A program made the position numbers and the translations under genes. Of a stretch of 64,000 bases of DNA, positions 27,211 through 55,802 are shown one piece after another; within the stretch, counting starts at the first letter, position 1, and every line of letters starts with the position of its first letter. The DNA lies in contig CACBIM010000002.1 of the NCBI GenBank assembly GCA_902539295.1, positions 1 to 64,000 of the forward strand, written 5' to 3'. This DNA comes from an uncultured SAR116 cluster alpha proteobacterium. GTDB lineage: Bacteria; Pseudomonadota; Alphaproteobacteria; Puniceispirillales; GCA-002684695. The notes under the pieces were generated by a model. The model was given only the letters and a program-made list of their open reading frames with translations, did no database searches and was not told the DNA's origin.

Positions 27211-27220
27211 ATATTTATTT

Positions 27221-27255
27221 AAAAGAAGAGAGTTTTCAAAATTCTCTTCTTTTTA
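27221..27255 (+). terminator. Intrinsic terminator/attenuator after ABC binding-protein gene
   Basis: AAAAGAAGAGA (27221-27231) pairs perfectly with TCTCTTCTTTT (27243-27253). Loop bases TTTT and AAAA can extend the pairing, and the hairpin ends in Ts. It lies between the binding-protein and permease genes, as often seen where the binding protein is made in excess. Confidence 0.65.
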
Positions 27256-27261
27256 AAAACA

Positions 27262-29420: not shown

Positions 29421-29430
29421 AGGAGGAAAT

Positions 29431-29934: not shown

Positions 29935-29955
29935 AAGAGATTGGGTGTAATTTAA

Positions 29956-34089: not shown

Positions 34090-34090
34090 T

Positions 34091-35053: not shown

Positions 35054-35079
35054 ACTTTAGTGAATGAAATGAGGAAAAG

Positions 35080-38841: not shown

Positions 38842-40116
38842 ATGAAAAAAATTAATACCCAAGAAGATTGGATTAATAGGGCTAAAGAAGTACTTCCAGC
38901 GGCAGGTTTTGGTAATTTTGAAAATGACATAATAATTAAACGCGGCAAAGGTAGCAAAGTCTGGGATGAAAATAATAATGAATATATTGATTATCTCATT
39001 GGTTCTGGCCCAATGCTTCTTGGACATGGGCATCCAGAGGTTATGGAAGCAATTTTTGAACAATTGCCTAATGGTTTAACCTTTTTTGCAAATAATTCAA
39101 AGGGTATAGAATTAGCTGAAGAAATTTGTAAAGCAGTTAAATCCTCTGAGCAAGTTCGCTTTGTCAGCTCTGGTGGTGAAGCAGATATGTATGCTATGAG
39201 ATTAGCAAGAGCTTTTACAGGAAAAGATAAAATTATAAAATTTGAGGGTGGTTACCACGGAATGAGTGCTGAAGCACAAATGAGTTTATCTCCCTCAAAC
39301 TTAGTTAATTTTCCTCAACCTGTTCCTGATAGTGCTGGAATACCTAAAAATATTGAAAAAGACATATTAATTGCTCCTTTTAACGATATTGATTTTATAA
39401 ATTCCATAATTACAGAATTCAAAGATGAAATTGCTGGAATAATAGTAGAGCCTCTTCAAAGGATCATACCTCCAGAGCCTGGATTTCTTGAGGGACTAAG
39501 AAGCTTATGTGATAAAAATAATATTCTTTTAATATTTGATGAGATTGTTACAGGCTTCAGATTAGCTTATGGAGGAGCACAAGAGAAATATAATGTTACT
39601 CCAGATTTGTGTACACTTGGGAAAATCATAGGAGGTGGTTTTCCACTTGCTGCAATTGCAGGTTCGAATGAAATAATGTCACATTTCGATCAAAATAAAG
39701 TAAGCAAGGATAAATGGTTAATGCAAATTGGAACACTTTCAGGAAATCCAATTGCTTCAGCGGCTGGGTTAAAAACAATGGAAGTTCTAAGACGAGAAAA
39801 TATGTTTGATAAACTTCGCAAATGCGGCAATGAAATTATGAATTGTTTAAATGAAAATTTAAAAAATGCAAATATTGGACATAGAATTGTAGGTGATCCA
39901 ACTTTATTTGATGTTCTTTTTTTGGATCAAGATGTTAAAAATTACAGAGATACAAAAAAAGCAGACATAAAACTTAACGCATTATTCAATAAAGGTCTTA
40001 GGATGAGAGGAATTTTTAAATCATCTGCAAAAATATATCCAAGCTTAGCTTTATCTGATGAAGACCTTTTTAATACAAAAAAAGCAATACACGATACAGT
40101 CTTAAATCTTGTTTAA
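38842..40116 (+). CDS. Class III aminotransferase (glutamate-1-semialdehyde aminomutase-like)
   Basis: A 424-residue PLP-dependent enzyme: VSSGGEADMYAMRLARAFTG (phosphate cup), EGGYHGMSAEAQ, IVEPLQ, FDEIVTGFRLAYGGAQ with the cofactor aspartate, and the PLP lysine in LGKIIGGGFPLAAIAG. It resembles glutamate-1-semialdehyde 2,1-aminomutase, but the context (amt on one side, aromatic catabolism on the other, no haem genes) favours a transaminase for another amino acid or amine. No clear ribosome binding site is present. Its stop lies one base from the convergent monooxygenase stop. Confidence 0.8.
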   Translation: MKKINTQEDWINRAKEVLPAAGFGNFENDIIIKRGKGSKVWDENNNEYIDYLIGSGPMLLGHGHPEVMEAIFEQLPNGLTFFANNSKGIELAEEICKAVKSSEQVRFVSSGGEADMYAMRLARAFTGKDKIIKFEGGYHGMSAEAQMSLSPSNLVNFPQPVPDSAGIPKNIEKDILIAPFNDIDFINSIITEFKDEIAGIIVEPLQRIIPPEPGFLEGLRSLCDKNNILLIFDEIVTGFRLAYGGAQEKYNVTPDLCTLGKIIGGGFPLAAIAGSNEIMSHFDQNKVSKDKWLMQIGTLSGNPIASAAGLKTMEVLRRENMFDKLRKCGNEIMNCLNENLKNANIGHRIVGDPTLFDVLFLDQDVKNYRDTKKADIKLNALFNKGLRMRGIFKSSAKIYPSLALSDEDLFNTKKAIHDTVLNLV

Positions 40117-40117
40117 T

Positions 40118-41308
40118 TCAATTATCGAGCCCTGTTCTTCCATATAACCATTCGATATCATTATACCAATCATCTTGAGTTTTTGATTTCATGATTTGGT
40201 TTCTTAATAAAGCATGTACTCCATCTGCATGGTACACATGTTTTCCAATCTCTCTTGAATGCAACTGGACTCTTGCTGTTCTAAGTATCCGTTTATTTTG
40301 ATAATTAATTAATGCTTGCTCTATATTTTCTTTTTCATTTTTAACTTCTTCAGATAAGCATACAGCATCCTCAATCGCCATGCATGCGCCTTGGGCTAAA
40401 TATTGGAGCATTGGATGAGCAGCATCTCCTAACACTGCTACTTTTCTATCAACCCATTTTGTGACAGGATCTCGATCACATAGAACCCAAAGTTTCCAAT
40501 CTTTTCCCTTTTCAATAATTTGTTTAGCTATTGAATTTACATGTTCAAAGCCTTTTCTGACCACATCCTTTGAAACTTGTTTTCCAGCCACTGGTTCTAA
40601 TGCATCATTATGATAGGTAACAACGAGATTAAAAGATTTTCCACCGTGAATAGGGTAGTGAACAATATGGCATTTTGGACCTGCCCAAAGTGTTGCAGCA
40701 TTCCATCTTAATTCTCCCGGCATTTGATCGATTGGTATCACCGATCTATATGTTGTATGACCTGAAACTTTTGGAGGTCCATCACCAACTAGCTGTGCTC
40801 TAATTTTTGACCAGAGACCTTCAGCTCCTATCAATGCAATCCCATTAATTTTGTTTCCATCATCTGAAATTGCAAAAACACCATCAGAGGTTTGCTCATA
40901 AGAAATAATATTTGTACTTGTACTCATTTCAATTAAATTATTTTCTTTACATGCATTTAAAAAAACACCGTGCAAATCACCTCTATGAACAACTGCATAA
41001 GGGTTTTTAAATCTATTCCTAAATTCATCACCTAATTCAATGCGGGTAATTTCATCACCATTTATTGCATCCATTAAAATCAGATCATCAATATAAACCG
41101 ACATTTTGCGCGCTTTATCACCCACTCCTAAATAATCAAACCCATGGAAAGCATTAGGTCCTAATTGAATACCTGCGCCAATTTCTCCTAACTTAGGAGC
41201 TTTTTCTAAAACAATTGATCTAACGCCATGCTTGGCAAGTCCAAGTGCAGTAGCTAAACCACCAATTCCTCCTCCAACAATGATAAATCTATTTTGTAAA
41301 GTGCTCAT
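40118..41308 (-). CDS. FAD-dependent hydroxybenzoate monooxygenase (3-hydroxybenzoate 6-hydroxylase-like)
   Basis: A 396-residue flavoprotein hydroxylase. The FAD loop FIIVGGGIGGLATALGL begins at residue 8, the pyridine-nucleotide/FAD DG-type motif is ALIGAEGLWSKIR, and the second FAD motif is AVLGDAAHPMLQYLAQGACMAIEDA. The length and order fit salicylate/3-hydroxybenzoate hydroxylases. Its neighbours encode gentisate 1,2-dioxygenase and maleylpyruvate isomerase, so 6-hydroxylation of 3-hydroxybenzoate (or hydroxylation of salicylate) to gentisate is the likely reaction. It is the last gene of the gentisate operon, two bases after the isomerase. Confidence 0.83.
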   Translation of the reverse strand: MSTLQNRFIIVGGGIGGLATALGLAKHGVRSIVLEKAPKLGEIGAGIQLGPNAFHGFDYLGVGDKARKMSVYIDDLILMDAINGDEITRIELGDEFRNRFKNPYAVVHRGDLHGVFLNACKENNLIEMSTSTNIISYEQTSDGVFAISDDGNKINGIALIGAEGLWSKIRAQLVGDGPPKVSGHTTYRSVIPIDQMPGELRWNAATLWAGPKCHIVHYPIHGGKSFNLVVTYHNDALEPVAGKQVSKDVVRKGFEHVNSIAKQIIEKGKDWKLWVLCDRDPVTKWVDRKVAVLGDAAHPMLQYLAQGACMAIEDAVCLSEEVKNEKENIEQALINYQNKRILRTARVQLHSREIGKHVYHADGVHALLRNQIMKSKTQDDWYNDIEWLYGRTGLDN

Positions 41309-41310
41309 TA

Positions 41311-41961
41311 TTATTCGCTATCAGGTTGATTTGAAGGATGTGCATTTTTAAATGCTTCTAATTGGCTACAATTTTCAAAGACTTTTTTTAAATTAGAAAG
41401 CTTTGAAATATCGATATTAAACCTGTTAGCAGAAAATATTTGAGGAACAAGAAATATATCAGCAATACTTGGTTTGTTTCCAAAGCAAAATTTATATTGA
41501 GAATTTAAATTAGATAATATTTCTTCGCATTCAGTTAGTCCACCAGCCATCCAACGCGTTAACCATTTTTGAATTTTTTCATCATTTTGATTGAATTCTT
41601 CTCTAATAAATTCTTGTACCCTTAAATTTTGAAATGGATGAATTTCACATGCAATTGTAAGACAAAAAGCTCGTGCTTTAGCTCTCAAGTTAATGTCTTC
41701 AGGTAATAAATTAGGATCTGGATATTTTTCCTCCAACCATTCAATAATTGCTAAAGATTGAGACAAAGAAAAATCATTTTCTTTTAATGAAGGAACTAAA
41801 GATTGGGGATTGATTTTCTTATATTCTGGACTGAATTGCTGTCCGCCATCCTTCCTAAGATGAATGGGGATAAATTTGTAATCAATATTTTTAAGGTTGA
41901 ACGCAATTCTACATCTATAAGCCGCTGAACTTCTAAAATAACCATAAAACTCAAACATCAA
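41311..41961 (-). CDS. Glutathione-dependent maleylpyruvate/maleylacetoacetate isomerase
   Basis: A 216-residue zeta-class glutathione-transferase-like protein. FYGYFRSSAAYRCRIAFNLK carries the SSxxxR/C active-site motif, followed by INPQSLVPSL and LSQSLAIIEWLEEKYP (glutathione gamma-glutamyl site). Located between gentisate dioxygenase and the monooxygenase, it most likely isomerises maleylpyruvate to fumarylpyruvate. The following hydrolase is not in the window. Confidence 0.85.
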   Translation of the reverse strand: MMFEFYGYFRSSAAYRCRIAFNLKNIDYKFIPIHLRKDGGQQFSPEYKKINPQSLVPSLKENDFSLSQSLAIIEWLEEKYPDPNLLPEDINLRAKARAFCLTIACEIHPFQNLRVQEFIREEFNQNDEKIQKWLTRWMAGGLTECEEILSNLNSQYKFCFGNKPSIADIFLVPQIFSANRFNIDISKLSNLKKVFENCSQLEAFKNAHPSNQPDSE

Positions 41962-41975
41962 AAATTACCTAATTT

Positions 41976-43028
41976 TTAAATTGATCTTTCTTCAAAGTAT
42001 CCAAGTTTTTCTTGAAGCGGTTTATCATGAATATGTATTAAGAATGTGTTTTCTTCTATGGAGTGTTCAATTTGTGAAAAAACAGGAGCTGTAAAAGTGT
42101 CTTTTGCAGACCAAGTTATTTTTTTTCCATTAACCGTAGTTTCTCCTTTACCTTTTATTATATGAAATGCTGAAGAAATTGATGAAATTTTATCAATTTT
42201 AATTTTTCCTTTTTTAAGCATGGTTCCAGTGAAACCCATTGTTGGGAGAACACTTTGACCATTTTCCGGATTTACATAATCAACAGAAAGTATTTTATCA
42301 CTTGAGTTATTAGATAATTTTTCTAAAACTTCTTTCGTTTTTGCCCACGGAAATCTCATCATAGGATATTTAATTGAAGATCTTTTTCCTGCAGTAACAG
42401 GAACCAAGCCTGAGGATAAATATTCAAGCTGGCTAGTATCAGGTTTATTTTTTGGTATTTGCAACTCAGTTTCTTCAGAGTACGAACCCTCTAAATAAAC
42501 AAATAGTGGCAAATCCAGAGCATCTAACCATATAACTGGTTTATCACCCTCATGCCCATGGTCATGCCATTCACCCCCAGGTGTAAGAACCAAATCACCT
42601 TCTTCCATTGGAAGTTTTTCCCCATTAACAACTGTATATCCACCCTCTCCTTCGATAATAATTCTTGCTGCAGAAGGAGTATGCCGGTGTGCAGGAGCTG
42701 TTTCACCAGGTAAAAGAAGTTGCATGCCTAAATAAATTGATGACGTTGCTTGCATTGAACCAACACCACGACCAGGATCTGATAGAACAAGTACCCGTCT
42801 CTCTGCTTTTTCTACTGGCGTTAATTCACCAGCTCTTAATAAGAGTTCTCTTACTTTACCATAATTCCAAAAACCTGATTTTGTAACTGGCTTGGGTAAA
42901 TTATGAGGTAAAACATTTCTCATCATTGGCCACAATGGAGCCACACCAGCTTCTTCTAATTTATCAAGATACTCTTTTGGTAATTCGTCAATTGTTCCAA
43001 GCTTTGGCGACATACAATTAATCTCCAA
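41976..43028 (-). CDS. Gentisate 1,2-dioxygenase
   Basis: A 350-residue bicupin. The N-terminal cupin has the iron-binding pattern APAHRHTPSAARIIIEGEG followed by GDLVLTPGGEWHDHGHEG. The conserved entry segment is EAGVAPLWPMMRNVLPHNLP. It opens the gentisate ring to maleylpyruvate using Fe(II) and O2. The C-terminal cupin (about residues 240-345) is degenerate in metal ligands, as in related enzymes. First gene of the three-gene gentisate operon, 14 bases before the isomerase. Confidence 0.88.
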   Translation of the reverse strand: MEINCMSPKLGTIDELPKEYLDKLEEAGVAPLWPMMRNVLPHNLPKPVTKSGFWNYGKVRELLLRAGELTPVEKAERRVLVLSDPGRGVGSMQATSSIYLGMQLLLPGETAPAHRHTPSAARIIIEGEGGYTVVNGEKLPMEEGDLVLTPGGEWHDHGHEGDKPVIWLDALDLPLFVYLEGSYSEETELQIPKNKPDTSQLEYLSSGLVPVTAGKRSSIKYPMMRFPWAKTKEVLEKLSNNSSDKILSVDYVNPENGQSVLPTMGFTGTMLKKGKIKIDKISSISSAFHIIKGKGETTVNGKKITWSAKDTFTAPVFSQIEHSIEENTFLIHIHDKPLQEKLGYFEERSI

Positions 43029-43080: not shown

Positions 43081-43926
43081 TCACCTAGAAAGAGAAATAA
43101 AAATCAACCCAATTGTGACTGCTATTGCTGCTACAATCCTTAAATGCCATGGTTTTTCTCTAAATATAATTAAGCCAATTAATGATGCGAATATTACAGA
43201 TGTTTCTCTTAAGGAGGAAACTAAACCTAATGGAGAGGTAACTTTCACATAAATAACAATTGCATAAGCAATAGAAGATAATAAGCCGCCAAAACTTCCT
43301 ATAAAAAGTGTCTTTTTATCAATAGAAAAAAAATCTTTTTTTGATAAAATCCAAAACATTGATAAGCCAAAGACACCTTCAAGAATAAATAACCAACCTG
43401 CATAGCCTAACGCTGTCTTTGCCTCTCTTGCGCCTATTCCATCAAGCAAACTATAAGATGCAATACATAACCCAGTAAGGATAGCAAAGTATAATGATTT
43501 ATACGTAACTGCATTAAATAACCCATATACTGAAAGTATAATTATTCCCACAGAAATAAAAATTATCCCGATTAGACCTTTTCCAACTGGAAGCTCTCCA
43601 ATAAACAAGAAGGCTCCCAAAGTTACTAATAATGGTGCGATACCCCTCATTAAAGGGTATACCTCACTTAAGTCTCCCCAATTATAGCTTTGAAACAAAA
43701 AGTAAAAATATAAAACGTGAACAAAAACTGACACAATTAGAAATGGCCATGCTTCAACAGATGGGAAACTCGAAAATAAACTTAAAGCCACTCCGAATAG
43801 AAAATGCAACAAAACGATCAAAATCATTACTGTTGCTTTTCTTTTATTACCCTTGACAAAAGAATTCCAAAGAGCATGTAAAAATGCTGCAATCAAAACT
43901 AAGAAAAAAGCATTTAGACTTATCAT
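43081..43926 (-). CDS. EamA/DMT-family transporter
   Basis: A 281-residue integral membrane protein with ten predicted helices in two repeated halves. Each half ends in the EamA-type pattern: YPLMRGIAPLLVTLGAFLFIGE and SPLGLVSSLRETSVIFASLIGL. Members of the drug/metabolite transporter superfamily export or import small metabolites across the inner membrane. It lies 21 bases after the Rieske oxygenase and 52 before gentisate dioxygenase, so it may belong to either unit. Substrate unknown. Confidence 0.8.
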   Translation of the reverse strand: MISLNAFFLVLIAAFLHALWNSFVKGNKRKATVMILIVLLHFLFGVALSLFSSFPSVEAWPFLIVSVFVHVLYFYFLFQSYNWGDLSEVYPLMRGIAPLLVTLGAFLFIGELPVGKGLIGIIFISVGIIILSVYGLFNAVTYKSLYFAILTGLCIASYSLLDGIGAREAKTALGYAGWLFILEGVFGLSMFWILSKKDFFSIDKKTLFIGSFGGLLSSIAYAIVIYVKVTSPLGLVSSLRETSVIFASLIGLIIFREKPWHLRIVAAIAVTIGLIFISLSR

Positions 43927-43947: not shown

Positions 43948-45132
43948 TTAATTAGTAGACAGTAATTCTTGAGCAACCCACTTATTAAAATGATGAGTTG
44001 GATTATCCATAACAGGAGAAAAATTCCCTCCATTAAAAGCTGGAGATTGCCTTCCGTCTTGCATACCTTCAATTATTCTTAGATCTTCTGATTGAATACT
44101 ATGCCACTGTTCATAATTTTGTTTCCTAAGAGACATATATTCATCTGATTTCGCTGCTCTTTCCCCAACATAGTAAATATCCATATGCTCTTTTGTATAG
44201 TTATAACTTACAGGTTCTAGCCAATAAACATAGTAGTGATCTTTATGAATACCCAACATTACATTCGGGAAAAGAGCTACATATTCCGCAATCTCTTCTT
44301 TGTCACTTGGCCAGTTTGGAAAATTTGGAAATATTTTTCCTCCCTCAAATCTTGGATTGTAAACCAGCGTGCCCTGACCAGCAAATCTATTTGGCAAACC
44401 TTGTATGTGATAGTGATCTTCAAGTTTTGAATAAGAGTTCAGTCCAGGATGAACCCACGGCAGATGATAACTTTCACAGTAATTTTCTATCGCAAATTTC
44501 CAGTTGCATTTTGCTTCTAAAAGGAAATATCCGTTATCTTGTGCATGCGTTATAAGATTTTGATCCTCTTTAGTCCAAAACTTTGACCACCTCTTTTCTA
44601 GAGGTTCAATATATTTATCAAATGGGATTTGATTTCCCGAAATATTGATAAATATCATATCAAGCCAAACGTATGAACGTACTTCAATTAAATCACTTCT
44701 GCTTTTTACAAATCCATCTGCATCATTTTTGTCCATACCACCGATATGTGGAGTGGATACTAATTTCCCGTTTAAATCATAAGCCCATGAATGGTAGGGA
44801 CATCTTAAAGCATTTTTTATTTTGCATGGCTCATTAAGTAATTTATAGCCTCTATGACTACATACATTATGAAACACTCTAATTTTATCATTTTTATCTT
44901 TTAAAATAATAAGAGGTATACCCAGTAAATTGAACGGTATTGCTTCACCTTTTTGTTTAAGATTGCTAGCTACACCAATTACAACCCATTTGTCCTCAAA
45001 CAGTAATTTCCGTTCAAATTTTGTATAACCCCCTTCAAGATAGCATTCATTTGGAAGCCCATGAGCTTCTTCTATAGAGTTGCAAACAACTTCAAGCTTT
45101 TCTAAGGATATATAATTTTCTAACTTTTCCAT
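43948..45132 (-). CDS. Rieske-type non-haem iron oxygenase, alpha subunit
   Basis: A 394-residue ring-hydroxylating-oxygenase-type protein. The Rieske [2Fe-2S] ligands are in NVCSHRGYKL and LRCPYHSWAYD (CxH-CxxH). The mononuclear iron site begins with ENYCESYHLPWVHPG (two histidines). The N-terminal and catalytic domains look like the group that hydroxylates or demethylates quaternary amines (choline monooxygenase, glycine-betaine and stachydrine demethylases) as well as aromatics. Its neighbour is an MttB-family methyltransferase, which favours a methylated amine. No dedicated ferredoxin-reductase gene is adjacent; the flavin reductase at 49235 is a possible electron supplier. Confidence 0.8.
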   Translation of the reverse strand: MEKLENYISLEKLEVVCNSIEEAHGLPNECYLEGGYTKFERKLLFEDKWVVIGVASNLKQKGEAIPFNLLGIPLIILKDKNDKIRVFHNVCSHRGYKLLNEPCKIKNALRCPYHSWAYDLNGKLVSTPHIGGMDKNDADGFVKSRSDLIEVRSYVWLDMIFINISGNQIPFDKYIEPLEKRWSKFWTKEDQNLITHAQDNGYFLLEAKCNWKFAIENYCESYHLPWVHPGLNSYSKLEDHYHIQGLPNRFAGQGTLVYNPRFEGGKIFPNFPNWPSDKEEIAEYVALFPNVMLGIHKDHYYVYWLEPVSYNYTKEHMDIYYVGERAAKSDEYMSLRKQNYEQWHSIQSEDLRIIEGMQDGRQSPAFNGGNFSPVMDNPTHHFNKWVAQELLSTN

Positions 45133-45140
45133 TTTATAAT

Positions 45141-46697
45141 TTAAAAATCAGTTTTTACTCCACCCTCAGATTTTCTTCTATCTACAAATGACTTTAGCTC
45201 ATCTTTTACAGCAATATCTATTTTAGGAGCTTCAAATTCTTTTAGTATATCTTTCCATATTTTGTTTGCACGTTGATGTGTCCATTCAGCGCCGTCTTGC
45301 TCCCAAGCCTCATAATTTCGCCAATCTGACAAAAATGGAGAATAAAAAGCGTTAGTATACCGTTCTTGTGTATGATCACATCCAAAAAAATGTCCGTTTG
45401 GCCCAACTTCTTTTATTGCATTTACAGCTAAGGAATCTTGACCAACATCAGAAATTACTGGATCAAAATATCTTTGAAATTGCTGCAATACTTCACAGTC
45501 CATAACAAATTTTTCATAACTTGCTATTAAGCCACCCTCTAACCAACCAGCGGAATGATATACAACGTTTACTCCACCGGTACTTGCAGCCCAGAGACTA
45601 TTTAAACTTTCCCATATAGCTTGACCATCTGGGGCATTAGCAGCACAAGCATTGGAAGCCCTTAAAGGTAATCCATAGTATCTTGCCATTTGGCCTGTTA
45701 TTTGGGTGGCTCTGATATACTCAGGTGTCCCAAAAGCAGGTGCTCCACTTTTCATATCAACATTTGAGGTAAAAGTTCCAAAAACACATGGTGTGCCAGG
45801 GTTAATGTATTGAAGCAAAGCAATTGCTGCAAGACCCTCAGCTAAAGATTGAACAACTGCTCCAGTCATAGTCACAGGAGCCATTGCTCCCGCGAGTGTA
45901 AATGGAGTTACAAATACAGGCTGGCCTTTTCTAGCAAACCTCATTGCTCCATCTAGCATTGGATGATCATGCTTTAGTGGAGATGATGAGTTAATATTGG
46001 TATAAATTCTTGGCTTAGAAAAAAACTCATCTTCATTTAATCCAGATGCTATCTTAGCCATTTCAATCGCATCCTCTACACGTTGGCTCCCTAATGAATA
46101 AGCATGACAAACCTTGTCAGTTAAAGTTAATTTTTCGTATAAGCAATCTAAATGCCTGACTGAAGCATGAATATCAACTGGCTCAACAGGGTAGCCTCCT
46201 GCTAAATGAATACAATTAAAATATTGAGTAAGCTTTATAAGATCTTTAAAGCTTTCAAAATCTCCTACTCGCCTACCTCGATCTAAATCCATTACATTTG
46301 GTGGAGAAGAAACATTTACAAAGGCCATATTTCTACCACCAATTTTTACTGATCTATTTATATTTCTCGGAAAAATTTCAAATTCTGAAGGAGCCTTAGA
46401 AATCATTTCCTTAACCCAAGATCTATCCATCTTGACATTGTCTGAGTTCCTATCAACTTTACAACCAGCCTCAGAGAGTACTTTCTTTGCCTCTTCATTA
46501 AGAAACTCAATACCAATTTCTTCAAGAACCTGCATAGTCGCATTATGCACTTTGTTTACACCTTCCTCACTGAGAGGCTCTACAAAGTTGTCTGTATTAT
46601 ATGGAATACCCCATTCCAATTGATCTATTGATTTTTTGCTTTGTCGAACAGATTTTCTTGATCTTCCACCTGATCGTCTAGCAGTTTTCAGTTCCAT
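45141..46697 (-). CDS. MttB-family trimethylamine methyltransferase-like protein (no pyrrolysine)
   Basis: A 518-residue member of the MttB superfamily, with a basic N-terminal extension (RRSGGRSRKSVRQSKK). Family blocks include TMQVLEEIGIEFL, VNVSSPPNVMDLDRGRR, PVFVTPFTLAGAMAPVTM, FGTFTSNVDMKSGAPAFG and HFFGCDHTQERY. The frame is uninterrupted, so the UAG-encoded pyrrolysine of true trimethylamine methyltransferase is absent. Non-pyrrolysine relatives demethylate quaternary amines such as glycine betaine and pass the methyl to a corrinoid protein; no corrinoid-protein gene is in the window. It sits between a Rieske oxygenase and a HutH-like lyase. The substrate is probably a betaine, inferred only. 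Confidence 0.8.
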   Translation of the reverse strand: MELKTARRSGGRSRKSVRQSKKSIDQLEWGIPYNTDNFVEPLSEEGVNKVHNATMQVLEEIGIEFLNEEAKKVLSEAGCKVDRNSDNVKMDRSWVKEMISKAPSEFEIFPRNINRSVKIGGRNMAFVNVSSPPNVMDLDRGRRVGDFESFKDLIKLTQYFNCIHLAGGYPVEPVDIHASVRHLDCLYEKLTLTDKVCHAYSLGSQRVEDAIEMAKIASGLNEDEFFSKPRIYTNINSSSPLKHDHPMLDGAMRFARKGQPVFVTPFTLAGAMAPVTMTGAVVQSLAEGLAAIALLQYINPGTPCVFGTFTSNVDMKSGAPAFGTPEYIRATQITGQMARYYGLPLRASNACAANAPDGQAIWESLNSLWAASTGGVNVVYHSAGWLEGGLIASYEKFVMDCEVLQQFQRYFDPVISDVGQDSLAVNAIKEVGPNGHFFGCDHTQERYTNAFYSPFLSDWRNYEAWEQDGAEWTHQRANKIWKDILKEFEAPKIDIAVKDELKSFVDRRKSEGGVKTDF

Positions 46698-46704
46698 TTT
46701 TTCC

Positions 46705-48234
46705 TCAATTAAAAATCCAGAATTTTTTTAATTTTTTTGATTTTATAAACTCTTCTAATTCTACAGCAGTCGTTTCAATATCATTCTCTATTGGACGGTC
46801 AATAAGAATTTTGTCAATTGTTTTTCTAATAATTTTAAACATTAGTTTTGTTGGTGATGAGATTAATTTTGAATTGCTAATATTATCATGCCTTAAGTCT
46901 AATGCCTGGCAAGATACTAAGGTTTCAATTCCAGATAAAAGTTTCATTAATTCAGATTGTCTAATTAATTTTTTAGCACTTGAGGGTGTCATTGTAGACA
47001 TGTCCTCAACAGTATCTGAAACAGGACTAGTATCAAATGAAATAGGAAAAGCACATTGCCTAATCTCAGACAAAATAGAAGCTGCTGTTTTTTGTAAAGG
47101 CATTAATCCAGCAGATTTACCACCTATTGGAGATAGATAGCCAGGCAAATCTGAAATTTCATTATTCATCAATTTTTGTATTCTCTGAAAAGATCCATTT
47201 GCAATCATAGCATTAGAGAGTGTTACACTTTCCATAATTTGTGCTAGTGCAGGATTATGGAAATTAGGTGTAGACACTAAATCTTTATTATTTAAAACTA
47301 CAGGACTATCAGAAATCCCATTTAACTCATTTTCCCAATATTCGATTAGCCGAGTAATATTTGTCATACCCAAACCGTGACAAACTGATATAGTTCTAAA
47401 TGATAAAGGATCTTGCAGTCTTCTTGGTTTTTGTAAAATATTTTTGAATATATTATCATACCAACGTGCACATTCATTTTGCCCAGGTGAAACTCTTAGT
47501 TCATTAACTTCAGGGGAGAATATTTGCTTGTTTCCAATAAATGCCTCAAATGAAAACAGTGCTGAAAACTGCATCATCATAAATGCAGTTAAAGTATCAC
47601 TTAAGGCTTTGCCAGATAAAGCAATTGAAAGGCATGAGTGGTTTATCAATGCCATTGCATCCTTTCCTTCAAGTTTTGGAAGTTTTATTTTGTTTGAGAC
47701 TAGTTTATTTTTTGAGTTTATAATTTTGCCATTATTCCAAAACTTTCCTTTTCCTAATAGAGCAAGTCCAAAAGTAGCATTTTGTGTTAAATCTCCTGCC
47801 CCGATAGATCCAAATTCTGGAATTGCAGGACTAAAACCTTTTTCTAAACACTTCATCAGATGTTTAAAAAGTTTAGGTGATATACCTGTATTTCCTTTTG
47901 ATAGTTGGATACAACGTGCATAAAGAAGTAGTAAACCTATATCCTCATCCAAAAATTTTCCTACACTTGAAGATCTTCCTTCAATAATAAGCTGCTGAAA
48001 ATTTTCAATCTCTTTTTTGTTTAATTTATAATTTACATTACTACCTAGCCCTGTATTCATTCCATATACAGATTGACCGGAATTGAGGCTTTGTCTTACA
48101 CAAGCAAAATCTTTCTTAATTTTAGTTAAAATATTTTTATTTATTTGAAATTTAATTTTATTTTCTTTGATTAATTGCAGTGTTTCAAAGAAATGATTTA
48201 ATTTAATTCTCTTGTTATTAAAATTATAGATCAT
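46705..48234 (-). CDS. HutH-like aromatic amino acid lyase lacking the MIO serine (ergothionase-like candidate)
   Basis: A 509-residue member of the histidine/phenylalanine ammonia-lyase family. The catalytic tyrosine segment is kept (SVYGMNTGLGS), as is the NFH segment (STPNFHNPALA). The MIO-forming Ala-Ser-Gly triad is not: GSIGAGDLTQ has Ala146 followed directly by Gly147, with codons GCA-GGA-GAT at 47791-47799 and no serine. The NGT of HutH is NHS, and RCQPQ is RTISV. True hutH (51585-53129) keeps GASGDL. MIO-less relatives include, as I recall, ergothionase, which eliminates trimethylamine rather than ammonia. Its start overlaps the upstream gene (TAATG), placing it firmly in this operon. 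Confidence 0.72.
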   Translation of the reverse strand: MIYNFNNKRIKLNHFFETLQLIKENKIKFQINKNILTKIKKDFACVRQSLNSGQSVYGMNTGLGSNVNYKLNKKEIENFQQLIIEGRSSSVGKFLDEDIGLLLLYARCIQLSKGNTGISPKLFKHLMKCLEKGFSPAIPEFGSIGAGDLTQNATFGLALLGKGKFWNNGKIINSKNKLVSNKIKLPKLEGKDAMALINHSCLSIALSGKALSDTLTAFMMMQFSALFSFEAFIGNKQIFSPEVNELRVSPGQNECARWYDNIFKNILQKPRRLQDPLSFRTISVCHGLGMTNITRLIEYWENELNGISDSPVVLNNKDLVSTPNFHNPALAQIMESVTLSNAMIANGSFQRIQKLMNNEISDLPGYLSPIGGKSAGLMPLQKTAASILSEIRQCAFPISFDTSPVSDTVEDMSTMTPSSAKKLIRQSELMKLLSGIETLVSCQALDLRHDNISNSKLISSPTKLMFKIIRKTIDKILIDRPIENDIETTAVELEEFIKSKKLKKFWIFN

Positions 48235-49238
48235 TAAGCAAATCTGAGTTTTTGCCCCACTCCTATTTCTTTGGCTTTAGATAAAATTTTATGCCCCAAA
48301 GCAATATCTGATAATGAAAGTCCTCTATGCCAGAATAGTATAGTCTCATCATTTGCTTCTCGCCCTTTTTTGAGACCACATACAATCTCTCCTAATTCTG
48401 CGTGAAGAGTTTCAAAGGTTATTTTACCTTTATCTATATGTTCTCTCAATGCTCCAAAAATACCATGAGCCTGACCCCAATCATCCATAACAAATTTATC
48501 CATTATATCAGGCAATGAGAATTCAAGAGCTGACATTGTCCCATATGGAATAACTAATGCACCTTTTTTAATCCAGTCAGTTTTTAAAAGTGGCTCAGGT
48601 TTAGACAATCTAGAAGCCTCAACAACTATATCAGCATCAAGTATGCAGCTTTCCCAGTCGTCAGTTACTTTAATTGGTCTTTTTAAATCCTCGGTGAGTT
48701 TATTTGCAAATTTTTCTCTGCTTTCTACTCTTTTTGAATGAATTCGAACTTCTTCAAAATCAAATAAATGACACAAAAGACGAACATTCCAGTAAGCTGT
48801 TCCTCTTGCACCAATATGAGCGAGAATTTTGGGTTTTTTATTGGAAAGATATTTTGCGCCAATAGCAGTGACAGCTCCGGTTCTCATGTCAGTTATACCT
48901 GTAGCGTCAACAATTGCTTTTGGTGCTCCATTCCTAGGGTCAAACAAAGTAAGCACTCCATATTCGGATGGTCTGTCTTCAAGATAATTGTTTACAAAAT
49001 CTCCAACAACCTTTGTGCCCGCACTATCAATTTCACCTCCAATCCAGCCTCTCAAAACATTGAAATGTCCTTCAACACCAGCTCTTGGACGAATATGTGT
49101 TCTCGGTTCAATTTCAGTTTCACCTCTTCCCTGCATCTTGAGACTATCTTCAATAGCATTTAGGATTTCATCATTTGTAAGAGCGACTTTATCTACATCA
49201 AATTTATTTATAAAATCTATATAAACTTCGGGTGTCAT
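48234..49238 (-). CDS. Ornithine cyclodeaminase/mu-crystallin-family protein
   Basis: A 334-residue protein of the OCD/mu-crystallin family. GGEIDSAGTKVVG is the substrate-side segment, VDATGITDMRTGAVTAIGAKYL is the family hallmark, and the Rossmann part ILAHIGARGTAYWNVRLL has an altered GxGxxG (GARGTA). ADIVVEAS matches the DIVVTAT segment. Members reduce imines or deaminate amino acids using NAD(P). Its start overlaps the flavin reductase stop (ATGA) and its stop overlaps the HutH-like start, so it is in the middle of a coupled operon. Substrate unknown. Confidence 0.78.
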   Translation of the reverse strand: MTPEVYIDFINKFDVDKVALTNDEILNAIEDSLKMQGRGETEIEPRTHIRPRAGVEGHFNVLRGWIGGEIDSAGTKVVGDFVNNYLEDRPSEYGVLTLFDPRNGAPKAIVDATGITDMRTGAVTAIGAKYLSNKKPKILAHIGARGTAYWNVRLLCHLFDFEEVRIHSKRVESREKFANKLTEDLKRPIKVTDDWESCILDADIVVEASRLSKPEPLLKTDWIKKGALVIPYGTMSALEFSLPDIMDKFVMDDWGQAHGIFGALREHIDKGKITFETLHAELGEIVCGLKKGREANDETILFWHRGLSLSDIALGHKILSKAKEIGVGQKLRFA

Positions 49239-49891
49239 GAAGACTTTCCCTCAAGACCATCAGATGCTTTTGAAGAAGCTCCAGGTATACGCATTTCAAA
49301 TACATCTGTAACTGATGTATAGTCATAGTACCCCAATCTAGCTAATGGTCTTATTTTCTTTATATCCATTTTACCATTTGCATCTATATATTGATCATTA
49401 ACATGAATTCTCATTACCTGACCGTAAACGACATCCACGTAACCATGATTTGAGTTTCCAGCAAGACGATGTGTTGACAAATATTTACACTCAAAATGTG
49501 CGGGAGATTCTTTTACTCTTGGCACTTTAGTATCAATACATTCTTGTTTTGAGACGCCCGCATGTACAAATTCATCTTCAGAAGATGCTAACTCCATTGC
49601 AGAAATATTTACAGCTTCACGCAATTCATATGTAGCCATATTCCAAACAAACCACCCTGTTTTTTCTACATTTATTACAGTGTCTTTTCTTTTTCCTGAT
49701 GAAAGTTGATTAGCTGCAAACATTACAAGTGGAGGATCAAAAGTTAAGTTTTGCCATTGGCTATATGGGGCAAGATTTGCTATTCCATCTTCAGAAAGAG
49801 TTGAAAGCCAACCGATAGGCCTGGGAACGGTACAAGATTTAAATGGTGAATAAGGAAGCGGACACTTTTCATTGGTTGGTGAATAATGCAT
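49235..49891 (-). CDS. Flavin reductase-domain protein (FMN-binding split barrel)
   Basis: A 218-residue flavin-reductase-like protein: RPIGWLSTLSEDGIANLAPYSQWQ, PPLVMFAANQ, GWFVWNMATYELREAVNISA and HFECKYLSTHRL. The fold binds FMN and supplies reduced flavin or acts as an oxidoreductase. It lies between hutU (11 bases upstream) and the cyclodeaminase-like gene, whose start overlaps its stop. It may support the Rieske oxygenase or another flavin-using step. The partner is inferred from position only. Confidence 0.8.
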   Translation of the reverse strand: MHYSPTNEKCPLPYSPFKSCTVPRPIGWLSTLSEDGIANLAPYSQWQNLTFDPPLVMFAANQLSSGKRKDTVINVEKTGWFVWNMATYELREAVNISAMELASSEDEFVHAGVSKQECIDTKVPRVKESPAHFECKYLSTHRLAGNSNHGYVDVVYGQVMRIHVNDQYIDANGKMDIKKIRPLARLGYYDYTSVTDVFEMRIPGASSKASDGLEGKSS

Positions 49892-49901
49892 TTTTTATCC
49901 T

Positions 49902-51569
49902 TTATTTAATACTCGGCAAATTAAGTTTGTGATATTTAGCACTTTCAATAGCAATATCATATCCTGCATCAGCATGACGCATTACGCCAGTTGCAGGGTC
50001 ATTCCATAAAACTCTTTTAATTCTTTCTGAGGCTTTTTTTGTTCCATCACAACAAATAACCATTCCTGAGTGCTGGCTGTAACCCATACCAACACCGCCA
50101 CCATGATGCAACGAAACCCAAGTTGCCCCACTTGCAGTATTTAACAAAGCATTTAAAAGTGGCCAATCACTTACAGCATCTGATCCATCCTTCATTGCTT
50201 CTGTTTCGCGATTTGGACTAGCAACTGAACCACTGTCTAGGTGATCTCTTCCAATAACAATCGGTGCTGAAAGTTCTCCTTTAGCTACCATTTCGTTAAA
50301 TGCCAGACCTAATTTATCTCTCTGGCCTAAACCGACCCAGCAAATTCTAGCTGGCAGACCTTGAAATTTTATTCTCTCTCTGGCCATGTCTAGCCATTTG
50401 TGAAGATGTTTATCATCTGGAATAAGCTCTTTTACTTTAGCATCTGTTTTATAAATGTCTTCCGGATCCCCCGACAACGCACACCATCTAAAGGGACCAA
50501 TACCTTTACAAAATAATGGTCGGATGTATGCCGGAACAAAACCTGGAAATGAGAATGCTGTCTCCAGTCCTTCGTCTAAAGCGACTTGCCTTATATTATT
50601 ACCGTAATCAAGTGTTGGCACTCCCTTATTCCAAAAAGACACCATGGCTTGCACATGTTTTTTCATTGATTTTCTTGCTTCTGCTTCGACTAATTTTGGA
50701 TTGGTTTCTCTTTTATCTTTCCATTCACTTATAGACCAGTTTTCAGGAAGATAACCATTAGTTGGATCATGGGCACTTGTTTGATCAGTTACGATATCAG
50801 GCTTAATCCCCATTTCTGCAATTTCTGTAAAAATAGTTGCAGCATTACCAAGTAGCCCAACAGACTTTGATACTCCAGAGGATGTCCATGCTTTTATCAT
50901 TTCAAGAGCTTCTTTTAGACTTTCAGCTTTTTCATCCAGGTAACCTGTTCTCAAACGAAAGTCTATACTTTCAGGATTGCATTCAACGGCTAGACAACAT
51001 GCTCCTGCCATTACGGCAGCTAAAGGCTGAGCACCACCCATCCCACCAAGCCCTGCTGTCAAAATCCATTTTCCTTTCAAATCTCCATTGTAATGCTGTC
51101 TTCCAGCCTCAACAAAAGTTTCGTAAGTACCCTGAACAATTCCTTGGGTCCCTATATATATCCATGAACCTGCGGTCATTTGCCCGTACATTGCTAAACC
51201 TTTTTTATCAAGTTCATTAAAATGATCCCAATTAGCCCAATTTGGGACTAAGTTTGAATTAGCTATCAGTACTCTTGGAGCATCTTCATGAGTTTTGAAA
51301 ATGCCAACAGGCTTACCAGATTGAACCAAAAGGGTTTCATCTTCATCAAGAGATTTTAAGCTTGAAACAATTTTATCAAAATCTTGCCAACTTCTTGCTG
51401 CTCTACCAATACCCCCATAAACAACAAGTTCATTAGGGTTTTCAGCAACATCTGGATGTAAGTTATTCATCAACATTCTCATAGGTGCTTCTGTTGACCA
51501 CGACTTTGCTGTTATTATATCTCCTGTTGGGGGTTTAACTATTCTTGAATTTTTAATTAAGTCAGACAT
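49902..51569 (-). CDS. hutU: Urocanate hydratase
   Basis: A 555-residue protein, the usual length for urocanase. [57 protein letters not shown] (NAD-binding), [11 protein letters not shown] and [21 protein letters not shown]-type C-terminal sequence are canonical. With tightly bound NAD+ it converts urocanate to imidazolonepropionate. It lies 15 bases after hutH. A thiourocanate-hydratase variant is conceivable given the MIO-less lyase nearby, but the motifs visible look like ordinary HutU. Confidence 0.92.
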
Positions 51570-51584
51570 CTTTTACCTTTGATT

Positions 51585-53129
51585 TTATAAATTGAAAAAA
51601 GTTGAAATTGGAAGATCAAGCTTTGAACTCTTAAGTATATTTTTTTTATCTAATAGATTAGAAACGTTGTTAATATCATTAGATACAAACCTATCCTCAT
51701 TCAAACGCGGCACATGTTTTCTTAGTTCATCAACTACATTCTGAAGCAATGGAGAAGTTTTTAGAGGTTGACGGCTCTCTACCCCTTGCGCTGCACATAA
51801 TAATTCAATTCCAAAAATTGAATTTAAGTTTTTATTCATTTTAAATAATCTGTATGCACCATGAGCAGACATTGAAACATGGTCTTCCTGGTTTGCTGAA
51901 GTAGGTGTTGAGTCTGTAACACAAGGATTTGCAAGGTGCTTATTTTCACTCATTAAAGCTGCAGACGTTACTTCAGCAATCATAAAACCTGAATTTAAAC
52001 CTGCGTCATCTGTCAAAAAAGGGGGTAGGTCATAGCTTAAGGTTGGATCAACCATTAAGGCTATTCTCCTTTGAGAAATTGATCCAATTTCTGCTAACGC
52101 TAATGCTATTTGATCCGCTGCAAAACCGATAGGCTCTGCATGAAAGTTACCGCCTGAAACAATCTTATTTTCATCGACTAAAACAAGAGGGTTATCTGTT
52201 ACAGCTTTTGTTTCGATATCAATAGTAACTGAAGCATTCTTTAATATATCTAAACTTGCTCCCAAAACTTGTGGCTGACATCTTATACAGTATGGATCTT
52301 GAACTCTTTGGTCATTTTCTCTGTGACTTTCCCGAATAACACTTCCATCCATCAACTCTCTCATTTTACTGGCAACAAAAATTTGACCCTTATGCCCTCT
52401 TAATTCATGTATTTGTGGTAAGAGTGGGCTTGTAGAACCCATTATTGCGTCTGTCGAAAGTGAAGAAATGACAATAGAGTTTAGTACAGACCTCCAAGCA
52501 TCTAATAAACTTGCAAGTGCGCAGGCTGTCGAAAATTGGGTACCATTTAACAGAGCTAGACCCTCTTTTGGACCAAGAGTAATAGGTTCAATTCCAGCCC
52601 TTTTTAGGGCCTCAAAACCAGAAAGCTTTTCACCATTGTAAAAAGCGAAACCCTCGCCAATCATTATAGCAGCCATATGGGCTAATGGAGCTAGATCACC
52701 TGACGCACCAACAGAACCCTGATGAGGTATTTCTGGGACTATCCCAGAATTTATAATTCGTTCAATTTGCTTTATGGTTGACCATTTTACACCTGAAGCT
52801 CCTAATGATAATGATACAATTTTTAATACCATCATTAATCTCGTAACGTCTTCGGGCAAAGGCTCTCCAATTCCAGCACAGTGGCTAAGAACAAGATTTT
52901 TCTGGAGTTGTTCCCTATCTTCTGAAGGAATAATTTTGTTTGCTAACTTTCCAAACCCTGTATTAACTCCATAAACAGGCAAATCTCCCTCAGCTGATTT
53001 TTGAACAATTTCATAAGATTTTGCGACATTTGTCTCTAATTCTGGATCAACAGCTATCTTTAATTTATTCCTTAATATTTTCTCTAGAAAATCTAAGTTA
53101 ATAGAATGAGGTGATATAATCTCAGTCAA
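51585..53129 (-). CDS. hutH: Histidine ammonia-lyase
   Basis: A 514-residue MIO-dependent lyase: YGVNTGFGKLANK with the catalytic tyrosine, GSVGASGDLAPLAHMA with the Ala-Ser-Gly triad, LLNGTQFS, QDPYCIRCQPQVLGA and SGGNFHAEP. It deaminates L-histidine to trans-urocanate. I place the start at the TTG at 53129: GGAGG on the minus strand (53135-53139) is five bases upstream, the protein then starts TEIISPHSINLD, and it overlaps the hutI stop by eight bases. An ATG at 53171 would give 14 extra residues but has no such signal. Confidence 0.92.
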   Translation of the reverse strand: MTEIISPHSINLDFLEKILRNKLKIAVDPELETNVAKSYEIVQKSAEGDLPVYGVNTGFGKLANKIIPSEDREQLQKNLVLSHCAGIGEPLPEDVTRLMMVLKIVSLSLGASGVKWSTIKQIERIINSGIVPEIPHQGSVGASGDLAPLAHMAAIMIGEGFAFYNGEKLSGFEALKRAGIEPITLGPKEGLALLNGTQFSTACALASLLDAWRSVLNSIVISSLSTDAIMGSTSPLLPQIHELRGHKGQIFVASKMRELMDGSVIRESHRENDQRVQDPYCIRCQPQVLGASLDILKNASVTIDIETKAVTDNPLVLVDENKIVSGGNFHAEPIGFAADQIALALAEIGSISQRRIALMVDPTLSYDLPPFLTDDAGLNSGFMIAEVTSAALMSENKHLANPCVTDSTPTSANQEDHVSMSAHGAYRLFKMNKNLNSIFGIELLCAAQGVESRQPLKTSPLLQNVVDELRKHVPRLNEDRFVSNDINNVSNLLDKKNILKSSKLDLPISTFFNL

Positions 53130-54345
53130 ATGATCCTCCAAAAATTCTTTTATATATTGGATTAAATCCAATTCGATATGAAAACTCAGCTGGGTGCTCT
53201 AAATCCCATATTACGAAATCTGAGATCATGCCTTCCTTAATCTGACCTCTGTCATTAAGAGCTAAAGCTTTCGCGGCATTTTTTGTCACACCAGATAAAG
53301 CCTCTAGTGGTGTTACTTTAAAAAGTGTGGATGACATATTCATTGTAAGTAGAATTGATGTAAGAGGTGATGATCCTGGATTACAGTCTGTTGCAATTGC
53401 CATAGGCACATTATACTTTCTAAATAATTCGATTGGAGGCTTTTGTTTTTCATTTAGAGTATAATAAGCCCCTGGAAGGATTACAGCTATACTTCCAGCA
53501 CCAGACATTAACTTAACATCATCCTTATTTGCGTACTCAAGATGATCCACTGAAATTGCATTATAAGAAGTCGCTAACTTAACTCCGCCTGAATGACTAA
53601 GTTGCTCGGCATGCAATTTTACAGGGAGGTCTAACTTCTTGGCTAATTCAAAAACTAATTTTAATTGTTCTGTATTTAATGCAACTGTCTCACAAAATCC
53701 ATCAACAGCATCAACCAGTCCCTCTTCATGAGCTTTAGTTAAAGCTGGAAGGCAAATATCTTCTATATATTTATTGGGGTTACTCTTATATTCGGGAGAG
53801 ATGCCATGTGAACCTAGAAAACTCGTTTTCACTCTTATCGGCCGTATTGTTTCCAACCTTCTTGCAACACGAAGCATCAAACATTCAGTTTCAATATCTA
53901 AACCGTATCCAGATTTAATTTCTACTGTTGTAACGCCATTTCTTATCATATCATCTAAACGCGTTAGGGATGATTCCAGCAGTTCATCAAAAGTAGCGCT
54001 TCTTGTGGATTTCATTGTTGAGGCTATACCACCCCCTGCTTTAGCAATCTCTTCATAAGATTTTCCGTTCAATCTCATATTAAACTCTGTGGATCTGTTG
54101 CCACCAAAAACCAGATGGGTATGGCAATCAATAAACCCTGGGGTTATTAACTTTCCTTTTACATTGAATTCTTCAAAGTTTTTAAATTTTTGGGGTATAT
54201 TTTTTTCTGGTCCAACCCAAGCAATGATATCGCCATCAGATACTATTACAGCATCTTCAATTATTTCAAAGTCATCACTATTACCCGACATTGGAACAAT
54301 TTTAGCGTTAGTAAAAATTGTTTGATTGGTTTTTGAATGTCCCAT
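53122..54345 (-). CDS. hutI: Imidazolonepropionase
   Basis: A 407-residue amidohydrolase. The metal site starts with FIDCHTHLVFGGNR. Family segments are GGGIASTMKSTR, EIKSGYGLDIETE, KLHAEQLSHSGG, VDHLEYAN and IATDCNPGSSPLTS with the catalytic aspartate. It hydrolyses 4-imidazolone-5-propionate to N-formimino-L-glutamate. First gene of the minus-strand hut operon, divergent from hutF across a 77-base region with a palindrome. Confidence 0.93.
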   Translation of the reverse strand: MGHSKTNQTIFTNAKIVPMSGNSDDFEIIEDAVIVSDGDIIAWVGPEKNIPQKFKNFEEFNVKGKLITPGFIDCHTHLVFGGNRSTEFNMRLNGKSYEEIAKAGGGIASTMKSTRSATFDELLESSLTRLDDMIRNGVTTVEIKSGYGLDIETECLMLRVARRLETIRPIRVKTSFLGSHGISPEYKSNPNKYIEDICLPALTKAHEEGLVDAVDGFCETVALNTEQLKLVFELAKKLDLPVKLHAEQLSHSGGVKLATSYNAISVDHLEYANKDDVKLMSGAGSIAVILPGAYYTLNEKQKPPIELFRKYNVPMAIATDCNPGSSPLTSILLTMNMSSTLFKVTPLEALSGVTKNAAKALALNDRGQIKEGMISDFVIWDLEHPAEFSYRIGFNPIYKRIFGGSFD

Positions 54346-54422: not shown

Positions 54423-55802
54423 ATGGATATTATTAATAAACATATATTCGCAAAAAAAGCCCTGCTTCCAAATGGCTGGTCTAATAATGTAATTATAGAA
54501 ATTGACCAATCAGGTTTAATTTCAAATGTAACTGAAAATAACAACCACAAAGTCGATGCAGATCTTAATGAAGAAATTATTCTACCAGCTATGAATAATT
54601 TACACAGCCATTCTTTTCAAAGAGCAATGGCAGGATTAACTGAAGCAAGAAGCCCTCAGGGTAATGATAATTTTTGGTCATGGCGGAATTTAATGTATCA
54701 GTTTCTTGATGTATTAACCCCAGAAGAAATCTACTCAATAACTTTATTTAGCCAAATGGAAATGCTGCAATCGGGGTATGTCGGTGTTGGTGAGTTTCAC
54801 TATTTACATAATCAAATTGGGGGAACTAAATATGACAATATTGCTGAATTATCTGAAAAAGTTTTAGAGGCTTCAGAAGAAAGTGGAATTAGTATTTGTT
54901 TATTGCCAGTTGTTTATGAAAGAGGTGGCTGCGACAATAGAGAATTAGAAGGAGGCCAACTAAGGTTTCATAACAATATTGATACTTTTGAAGAATTATA
55001 TAATCAAATTAAAGTATTCTTATCAAAAAATGAAAATTTTTCACTTGGTGTTGCAGCACACTCTTTAAGAGCTGTTAAGAATGAAACTCTGAATAAAATA
55101 ATTGATCTAACAAATGGCCCTATACATATTCACGCTGCAGAACAGGTCAAAGAAGTAGAAGAAATAAAGTCATTTTATAAAATGCCACCTGTAGAATTTT
55201 TATTTGAAAATTTTGATATTAATAAAAGATGGTGTCTTGTCCATTGCACTCAAATGTCTGAATTAGAAACAGAGCTTTTATCAAAATCAGGAGCTGTAGC
55301 TGGACTTTGTCCTGTAACAGAAGCAAATCTGGGTGACGGTATTTTCAATGGATTTCAATATAATGAGCAAAAAGGGTTATACGGTATAGGAACTGATTCA
55401 AACATCAATATCAGCCTCACTGAAGAGTTAAAAACTTTTGAATACTCCCAGAGACTTTTAAATAAAAAAAGAGCTGTTATTTCTAATCAAAAACAATCAA
55501 CTGGTAGAAAATTATTTGATGATTGTCTTGAGGGGGGAGCTCGCGCTTTACAAATTAATAATGGTAAAATTCAAAAAGGTTTTAATGCAGATTTAATATC
55601 TTTACCAAATAAGAATAATGAACTCGATGGATTAAAGGATGATAAAATTTTAGACTACTGGATTTTTGCATCTCGTGAAAATGATGTTTTAAAACTCTGG
55701 AATAAAGGCAAATGCCTTGTTGAAAATGGCAAGCATTTGAACTTTGATGATATTCAGTCAAATTACAGAAAAACTATAAAAAATTTACAAGAAAAACTCT
55801 AA
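54423..55802 (+). CDS. hutF: N-formimino-L-glutamate deiminase
   Basis: A 459-residue amidohydrolase. LHSHSFQRAMAGLTE holds the HxH metal motif, VGVGEFHYLHN, HIHAAEQVKEVEEI, HCTQMSELETE, LCPVTEANLGDG and GIGTDSNINISLTEELK follow in the order typical of HutF. It converts formiminoglutamate to formylglutamate and ammonia, the four/five-step variant of histidine degradation. The subsequent N-formylglutamate deformylase (HutG) is not seen in this window. Convergent with ppx, 14 bases apart. Confidence 0.88.
   Translation: MDIINKHIFAKKALLPNGWSNNVIIEIDQSGLISNVTENNNHKVDADLNEEIILPAMNNLHSHSFQRAMAGLTEARSPQGNDNFWSWRNLMYQFLDVLTPEEIYSITLFSQMEMLQSGYVGVGEFHYLHNQIGGTKYDNIAELSEKVLEASEESGISICLLPVVYERGGCDNRELEGGQLRFHNNIDTFEELYNQIKVFLSKNENFSLGVAAHSLRAVKNETLNKIIDLTNGPIHIHAAEQVKEVEEIKSFYKMPPVEFLFENFDINKRWCLVHCTQMSELETELLSKSGAVAGLCPVTEANLGDGIFNGFQYNEQKGLYGIGTDSNINISLTEELKTFEYSQRLLNKKRAVISNQKQSTGRKLFDDCLEGGARALQINNGKIQKGFNADLISLPNKNNELDGLKDDKILDYWIFASRENDVLKLWNKGKCLVENGKHLNFDDIQSNYRKTIKNLQEKL

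Follow-up and report, generated by a model that had tools for sequence, protein, structure and literature searches.

A MIO-less lyase of the histidine ammonia-lyase family and an OCD-family reductase in the hut operon of a marine SAR116 genus

A lyase and its reductase partner inside the hut operon

In a marine SAR116 genus, the hut operon encodes a histidine ammonia-lyase (HAL) family protein without the MIO triad, with an OCD/mu-crystallin family reductase as its real, core partner. This lyase falls in a sister group to the ergothionases that extends over alpha- and betaproteobacteria and actinobacteria. We tentatively propose, with confidence a little short of even, that it releases trimethylamine independently of MIO, in the manner of ergothionase, that its substrate is a histidine-derived betaine with an anionic ring substituent, best ergothioneine sulfonate, and that the OCD protein would desulfonate the product.

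The window is the whole stretch of DNA analysed, 64,000 nucleotides of contig 2 of a 2.16 Mb genome that is 88% complete. Five open reading frames fill positions 43948-49891 of its minus strand, as an earlier sequence-only reading had reported, although its text passed over the flavin-reductase-like gene lying inside that range (Table 1). Intergenic gaps within this block range from −4 to +8 bp, with 10 bp to hutU. In the directon from hutI through the EamA gene the extremes are an overlap of 49 bp and a gap of +21 bp, and the OCD and lyase genes overlap by 1 bp. The minus-strand order is hutI-hutH-hutU-flavin reductase-OCD-lyase-MttB-Rieske-EamA, followed by gentisate-pathway-like genes, so that the lyase indeed lies just downstream of hutU and hutH in one tight directon. 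A scan of genome contigs by alignment brought up no more than two SAR116 relatives. Two further species of the genus (G001 and G003) share the arrangement from hutI through EamA, and their proteins are, respectively, 92% and 92% (HutU), 93% and 87% (flavin reductase), 87% and 86% (OCD), 86% and 91% (MttB) and 84% and 83% (Rieske) identical to those of the window; for the lyase the figures are 59% and 57%.

Table 1. Genes of the hut directon and its surroundings in the window
Feature	Coordinates	Strand	Match or remark
EamA/DMT-type transporter	43081..43926	-	21 bp downstream of Rieske gene; possible transporter of the module
Rieske oxygenase alpha subunit, carnitine/glycine-betaine monooxygenase type, 394 aa	43948..45132	-	Rieske and Ring_hydroxyl_A
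MttB-superfamily non-pyrrolysine methyltransferase, 518 aa	45141..46697	-	PF06253, 707 bits
Lyase, HAL family, MIO-less, 509 aa	46705..48234	-	PF00221, 342 bits
OCD/mu-crystallin family reductase, 334 aa	48234..49238	-	PF02423, 157 bits
Flavin-reductase-like protein, 218 aa	49235..49891	-	PF01613, 61 bits; best solved relative nitrilotriacetate monooxygenase component B
hutU, ordinary urocanate hydratase	49902..51569	-	probable entry point of the product
hutH, MIO-bearing histidine ammonia-lyase	51585..53171	-	ASG intact
hutI, imidazolonepropionase	53122..54345	-	first gene of directon
hutF, formimidoylglutamate deiminase	54423..55802	+	divergent

Further along the same directon, a 3-hydroxybenzoate 6-monooxygenase (over cut-off), a GST-type isomerase and gentisate-dioxygenase-like genes occupy 40118-43028, the gentisate-dioxygenase-like gene being missing at the corresponding place in G003. 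A class III aminotransferase resembling GSA aminomutase (38842-40116) is kept near the operon across the genus, and a 61% identical homologue adjoins the lyase in the unrelated G394 (L113), beside a dimethylglycine-dehydrogenase-like gene. The operon next door (26005-37160) carries histidinol-dehydrogenase-like, SnoaL, SDR, LacI and ABC transporter genes; its HisD match may be a sulfopropanediol-dehydrogenase-type enzyme and not one of histidine biosynthesis.

Loss of the MIO triad

The source genome holds two PF00221 genes, HutH and the lyase at 46705-48234. Aligned with the HutH loop of the same genome (GSVGASGDL), that of the lyase (GSIGA-GDL) has one codon fewer, the DNA GGATCTATCGGGGCAGGAGATTTA encoding GSIGAGDL at residues 142-149. 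Its orthologues read GSIGS-GDL in G001 and GSIGA-GDL in G003, and thus the Ala-Ser-Gly triad of HutH is missing from the lyase in all three SAR116 species that have it. Since invariant residues flank the gap on both sides of the alignment and the same gap recurs in G001 and G003, alignment artefact and sequencing error can both be dismissed. The loss had been described as that of the MIO serine; one residue of the triad is gone, but naming the serine is imprecise because the G001 loop keeps 'SG'. The alignment with HutH and ergothionases that had been suggested as a check showed the gap to be real and common to the ergothionases: the Treponema denticola enzyme (SSIGE-GDI) and rhizobial ergothionases, located via thiourocanate hydratase (GSIGC-ADI), are equally short. 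The same one-residue gap was found in OCD-adjacent homologues from rhizobia, Martelella, the Roseobacter group, Streptomyces and others, with two MIO-bearing HutH genes as exceptions.

The lyase shares the fold and most of the active-site frame of HutH, from which it differs in lacking the MIO triad, and it scores 290.9 bits against the HutH equivalog TIGR01225 (cut-off 539.15). An inactive or regulatory, degenerate copy of HutH would be in keeping with its faster evolution (56-59% identity) relative to the OCD protein (86-87%) and to MttB and Rieske (83-91%). We consider this very improbable, given that the frame is open in three species, that Y57, R87, R280, K382 and E410 are invariant in 12 of 12 aligned members, and that members occur in alpha-, beta- and actinobacteria. 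Elsewhere, one lyase homologue (L104, G511:C1:4234433-4235899) has a single in-frame TGA in an otherwise open frame. Divergent HAL-like proteins near OCD genes in G221 (L062:13442-16506) and G256 (L061:6777-8342), with loops GMD-GE and GGA-GE, are possibly further MIO-less lyases.

Phylogeny and active-site residues of the lyase

In a maximum-likelihood tree of 36 rows of MIO-bearing and MIO-less lyases, the two kinds were separated with 100/100 support, and both the ergothionases (6s7j and rhizobial) and the SAR116 lyase fell into the MIO-less clade. Within it, an ergothionase branch (99/97) included the Polaromonas lyase, and the SAR116 lyase belonged to the other branch (91/90). It thus belongs to a sister group of the ergothionases, a placement made at the level of the branch.

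Pocket residues were compared in the numbering of Pseudomonas putida HAL (PpHAL). Tyr53, Arg283, Phe329 and Glu414 are kept as Y57, R280, F325 and E410, and N198 was also recorded; Tyr280 is replaced by leucine (L277) and position 386 is lysine (K382), both as in ergothionase 6s7j. By contrast, His83, which is kept in HutH and in the ergothionases, is arginine (R87) in the lyase. Arginine occupies this position in nearly all OCD-associated lyases, with G483 (His) and Polaromonas as exceptions, and Lys386 is absent from two lyases of the clade, in G394 and G169. Position 83, which we take to face the ring end of the substrate in HAL-family enzymes, presumably matches the selectivity residue His89 of tyrosine ammonia-lyase. 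Having arginine there in place of histidine suggests an anionic ring substituent. An AlphaFold model of the lyase from three sequences had a mean pLDDT of 41, too low for pocket geometry or a fold search.

The description of the lyase as ergothionase-like therefore stands as far as a common clade and common pocket changes go, and falls short in that the protein lies outside the ergothionase subclade and has arginine for His83. Compared with known ergothionases (T. denticola 6s7j/6s7q and Burkholderia sp. HME13), it shares the HAL fold, the short MIO loop, the Tyr280-to-Leu change, Lys386 and Arg283/Glu414; it differs in Arg for His83, in Asn for Ser at 195 and in its sister-group place. Their partner genes differ too, a thiourocanate hydratase (NF058530) for ergothionases, and the OCD gene and a true HutU for the lyase.

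Co-occurrence of the lyase with the OCD gene

We surveyed 385 alphaproteobacterial genomes with an OCD subfamily threshold of E < 1e-90 and an OCD-type lyase profile at E < 1e-124. OCD was found in 27 genomes and the lyase in 12, every one of which has OCD (Fisher p = 9e-16; p = 1.3e-14 without the window genome); these significances are inflated by relatedness, the 12 genomes spanning eight genera. Because the two genes are non-adjacent in most of the 12, their co-occurrence exceeds what operon sharing gives. The OCD gene, which had been taken as incidental, is by comparative genomics a core partner of the lyase. The reverse does not hold: an obligate pairing of OCD with a MIO-less lyase was rejected on the 15 of 27 OCD genomes without a recognised lyase and on loci from a Comamonadaceae plasmid and Rhodococcus, where OCD is accompanied by a MIO-bearing HutH. 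OCD is thus not tied to trimethylamine release as such, and its substrate should be common to both routes, most simply a modified urocanate or histidine.

The OCD protein of the operon belongs to a distinct and highly conserved subfamily (57-87% identity). OCD-family enzymes reduce C=N bonds, and the protein shares its family and NAD(P)-reductase frame with archaeal alanine dehydrogenase (1omo), the ketimine reductase CRYM, BhcD and EutC. It lies far below every equivalog cut-off of the OCD/mu-crystallin family, however, its best NCBIfam score among ornithine cyclodeaminase and alanine dehydrogenase equivalogs being 166.5 against 409.15.

The neighbours of OCD-only loci, when surveyed, were a mixture that included fatty-acid desaturase and peptide ABC transporter genes and pointed to no clear substrate. 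A fatty-acid-desaturase family gene repeatedly stands next to OCD (L056, L057, L075, L108, L119), and in G206 one adjoins the lyase-MttB pair. A gene for a PhnD/SsuA-like binding-protein fold usually follows OCD directly in rhizobia, Terrarubrum, betaproteobacteria and Rhodococcus (L021:11444-12244, L116:11587-12405, L131:9031-9837 and others). It is absent from the SAR116 operon, and its product, with no evident signal peptide at its start, may be a cytosolic partner.

Linkage to histidine utilization

The hydratase adjacent to the block scores 949.8 bits as HutU and 672 as thiourocanate hydratase (NF058530, cut-off 930), and its identity as an ordinary urocanase makes thiourocanate, once offered as an alternative product, unlikely. 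In the survey, hutU was present in 96 of the 385 genomes, namely in 23 of 27 with OCD and 73 of 358 (20%) without it (p = 1e-11), an association confounded by relatedness and genome size, as hutU is also present in 4 of 9 listed genomes that lack OCD and measure 2.7 Mb or more. G487, in which a hutU cut off at the contig end and an apparent hutD lie beside the lyase-OCD cluster, adds a 24th OCD genome with hutU.

The expected hut linkage is kept in the three SAR116 species and was also found independently elsewhere; alphaproteobacteria, betaproteobacteria and actinobacteria all provide cases of OCD within or next to hut genes. A second hutU stands beside OCD in G221 (L078), a HutC repressor gene (282 bits, cut-off 220) adjoins the lyase in Rhizobium, OCD lies between hutU and further hut genes of a complete hut operon on the Comamonadaceae plasmid, and it adjoins the HutH gene in Rhodococcus. 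This independent linkage in alpha- and betaproteobacteria, the Rhodococcus pair and the high co-occurrence with hutU speak against a substrate not derived from histidine. In this view the lyase would act on some other betaine, or on a non-histidine acid whose side chain is anionic, its acrylate product would go to other routes, and the hut linkage would be regulatory or coincidental. Such a substrate would accommodate the arginine at position 83 and the several genomes whose lyase and OCD genes are separate from hut, and many rhizobial clusters carry CoA-transferase, SDR and MaoC genes that fit breakdown of an acrylate side chain; we judge it unlikely overall. Two Rhizobium lyase clusters with these three genes (L116:3985-7189, L120:3407-6608) suggest that the acrylate product may also be broken down through its side chain, in addition to hut.

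A possible route from ring-substituted betaines to urocanate

Sulfur genes recur in related clusters. YeiH-family putative sulfate exporters score above cut-off in Polaromonas and below it in Rhizobium, and SsuA-family binding proteins (below cut-off) and FMN-dependent NtaA/DmoA or SfnG/SsuD-like monooxygenases are also found. The SAR116 operon contains no sulfonate transporter, YeiH, SsuA or FMN monooxygenase gene, YeiH-like matches in the genus are sub-threshold and outside the operon, and the sole sulfur hint is the NtaB-like flavin reductase, for which the source genome has no NtaA-type partner over cut-off. Moreover, OCD and YeiH accompany a His83-type, ergothionase-side lyase in Polaromonas, which weakens the link between the arginine and a sulfonate.

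Since the OCD family has ketimine-reductase character, and in view of Arg87 and these sulfur genes, reductive desulfonation of 2-sulfo-urocanate is the most economical task to assign to OCD. In the proposed pathway, the lyase would eliminate trimethylamine from ergothioneine sulfonate, a trimethyl-histidine with a sulfonate on C2, with R280 holding the carboxylate and K382 and R87 the extra negative charge. OCD would then add hydride to the imine-like C2 of the 2-sulfo-urocanate product, sulfite would leave, and the resulting ordinary urocanate would pass to HutU, HutI and HutF.

The original idea that a trimethyl-histidine is split into trimethylamine and urocanate for HutU thus remains the best class of explanation and was drawn too narrowly in its substrate, since plain hercynine leaves the strictly co-occurring OCD without a job. 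With unsubstituted trimethyl-histidine as substrate, OCD would have a secondary task, such as acting on a histidine that is partly demethylated or oxidised. This chemistry is the simplest, and it agrees with the ergothionase-like MIO-less lyase, the adjacent ordinary HutU and the methylated-amine enzymes of the directon, but it explains neither why the lyase is never seen without OCD, nor the arginine at position 83, nor the YeiH and SsuA genes of related clusters. We therefore regard it as improbable, and prefer the ring-substituted betaine.

Bacterial catabolism of ergothioneine sulfonate was reportedly described in Agrobacterium radiobacter (Yan, Huang, Zhang, ACS Catal. 2022, 12, 4825; cited in PMC13405746). 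The route reportedly relies on a trimethylamine-lyase together with a reductase that strips off the sulfonate. By title its substrate is the one proposed here, and that pathway may already cover the lyase-OCD core pair; we know of no MttB, Rieske or hut directon in it. The statement that no operon with this set has been described was correct to the extent that the open literature searched seems to contain no description of the complete operon, with the reservation that the core pair may be known.

Ergothionases have been reported from few genera (PMC13405746). If the proposed pathway is true, this sister group, strictly tied to one partner gene, spread over alpha- and betaproteobacteria and actinobacteria and, in a marine SAR116 genus, integrated into the hut operon, would widen the known bacterial sources of trimethylamine and show how thiohistidine betaines and their oxidation products are recycled.

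MttB, Rieske and methylated amines

The assignment of the last two enzymes to methylated amines was borne out, both being of quaternary-amine type. The best solved relative of the Rieske protein is carnitine monooxygenase CntA, and those of the MttB protein are non-pyrrolysine enzymes (4yyc and MtgB 9yce); both proteins remain below the equivalog cut-offs (107.5 against 670 for GbcA). The MttB frame (518 aa) ends at its own stop and aligns over its full length, without the in-frame amber codon of pyrrolysine MttB (TIGR02369, 301.5 against 525). A PF02607 corrinoid protein and a Tmm-like trimethylamine monooxygenase were not found in the 88% complete source genome. The corrinoid protein is present in 3 of 5 genomes of the genus, beside methyl-THF enzymes (methyltransferase and MetF-like genes), so that MttB can work, and we do not claim an orphan MttB. 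MttB, drawing on these corrinoid and methyl-THF enzymes from other loci of the genus, would together with Rieske handle the methylated amine or demethylate related betaines, and the flavin reductase would perhaps feed the Rieske oxygenase.

A fixed place for MttB and Rieske in every lyase cluster was rejected, as most lyase-OCD clusters elsewhere are without them. The same absence favors a different view, compatible with any reading of the pair, that lyase and OCD form the whole module and MttB and Rieske perform a separate, glycine-betaine-type demethylation on the shared transcript. We hold this to be possible, though somewhat doubtful. Extending our preferred reading to its full breadth, a widespread and undescribed pair of Arg-type MIO-less lyase and OCD would turn ring-substituted histidine betaines into urocanate, and in SAR116 would share an operon with hut, Rieske and an MttB demethylase that depends on corrinoid, using the ring, side chain and methyls of marine trimethyl-histidine; taken at this breadth, it is rather unlikely. 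A role for MttB and Rieske in the lyase pathway is plausible, and against a separate demethylation stand the MttB gene that divergently adjoins the lyase in the unrelated G206 and the genes for a B12-binding protein and DUF1638 that adjoin OCD in Terrarubrum.
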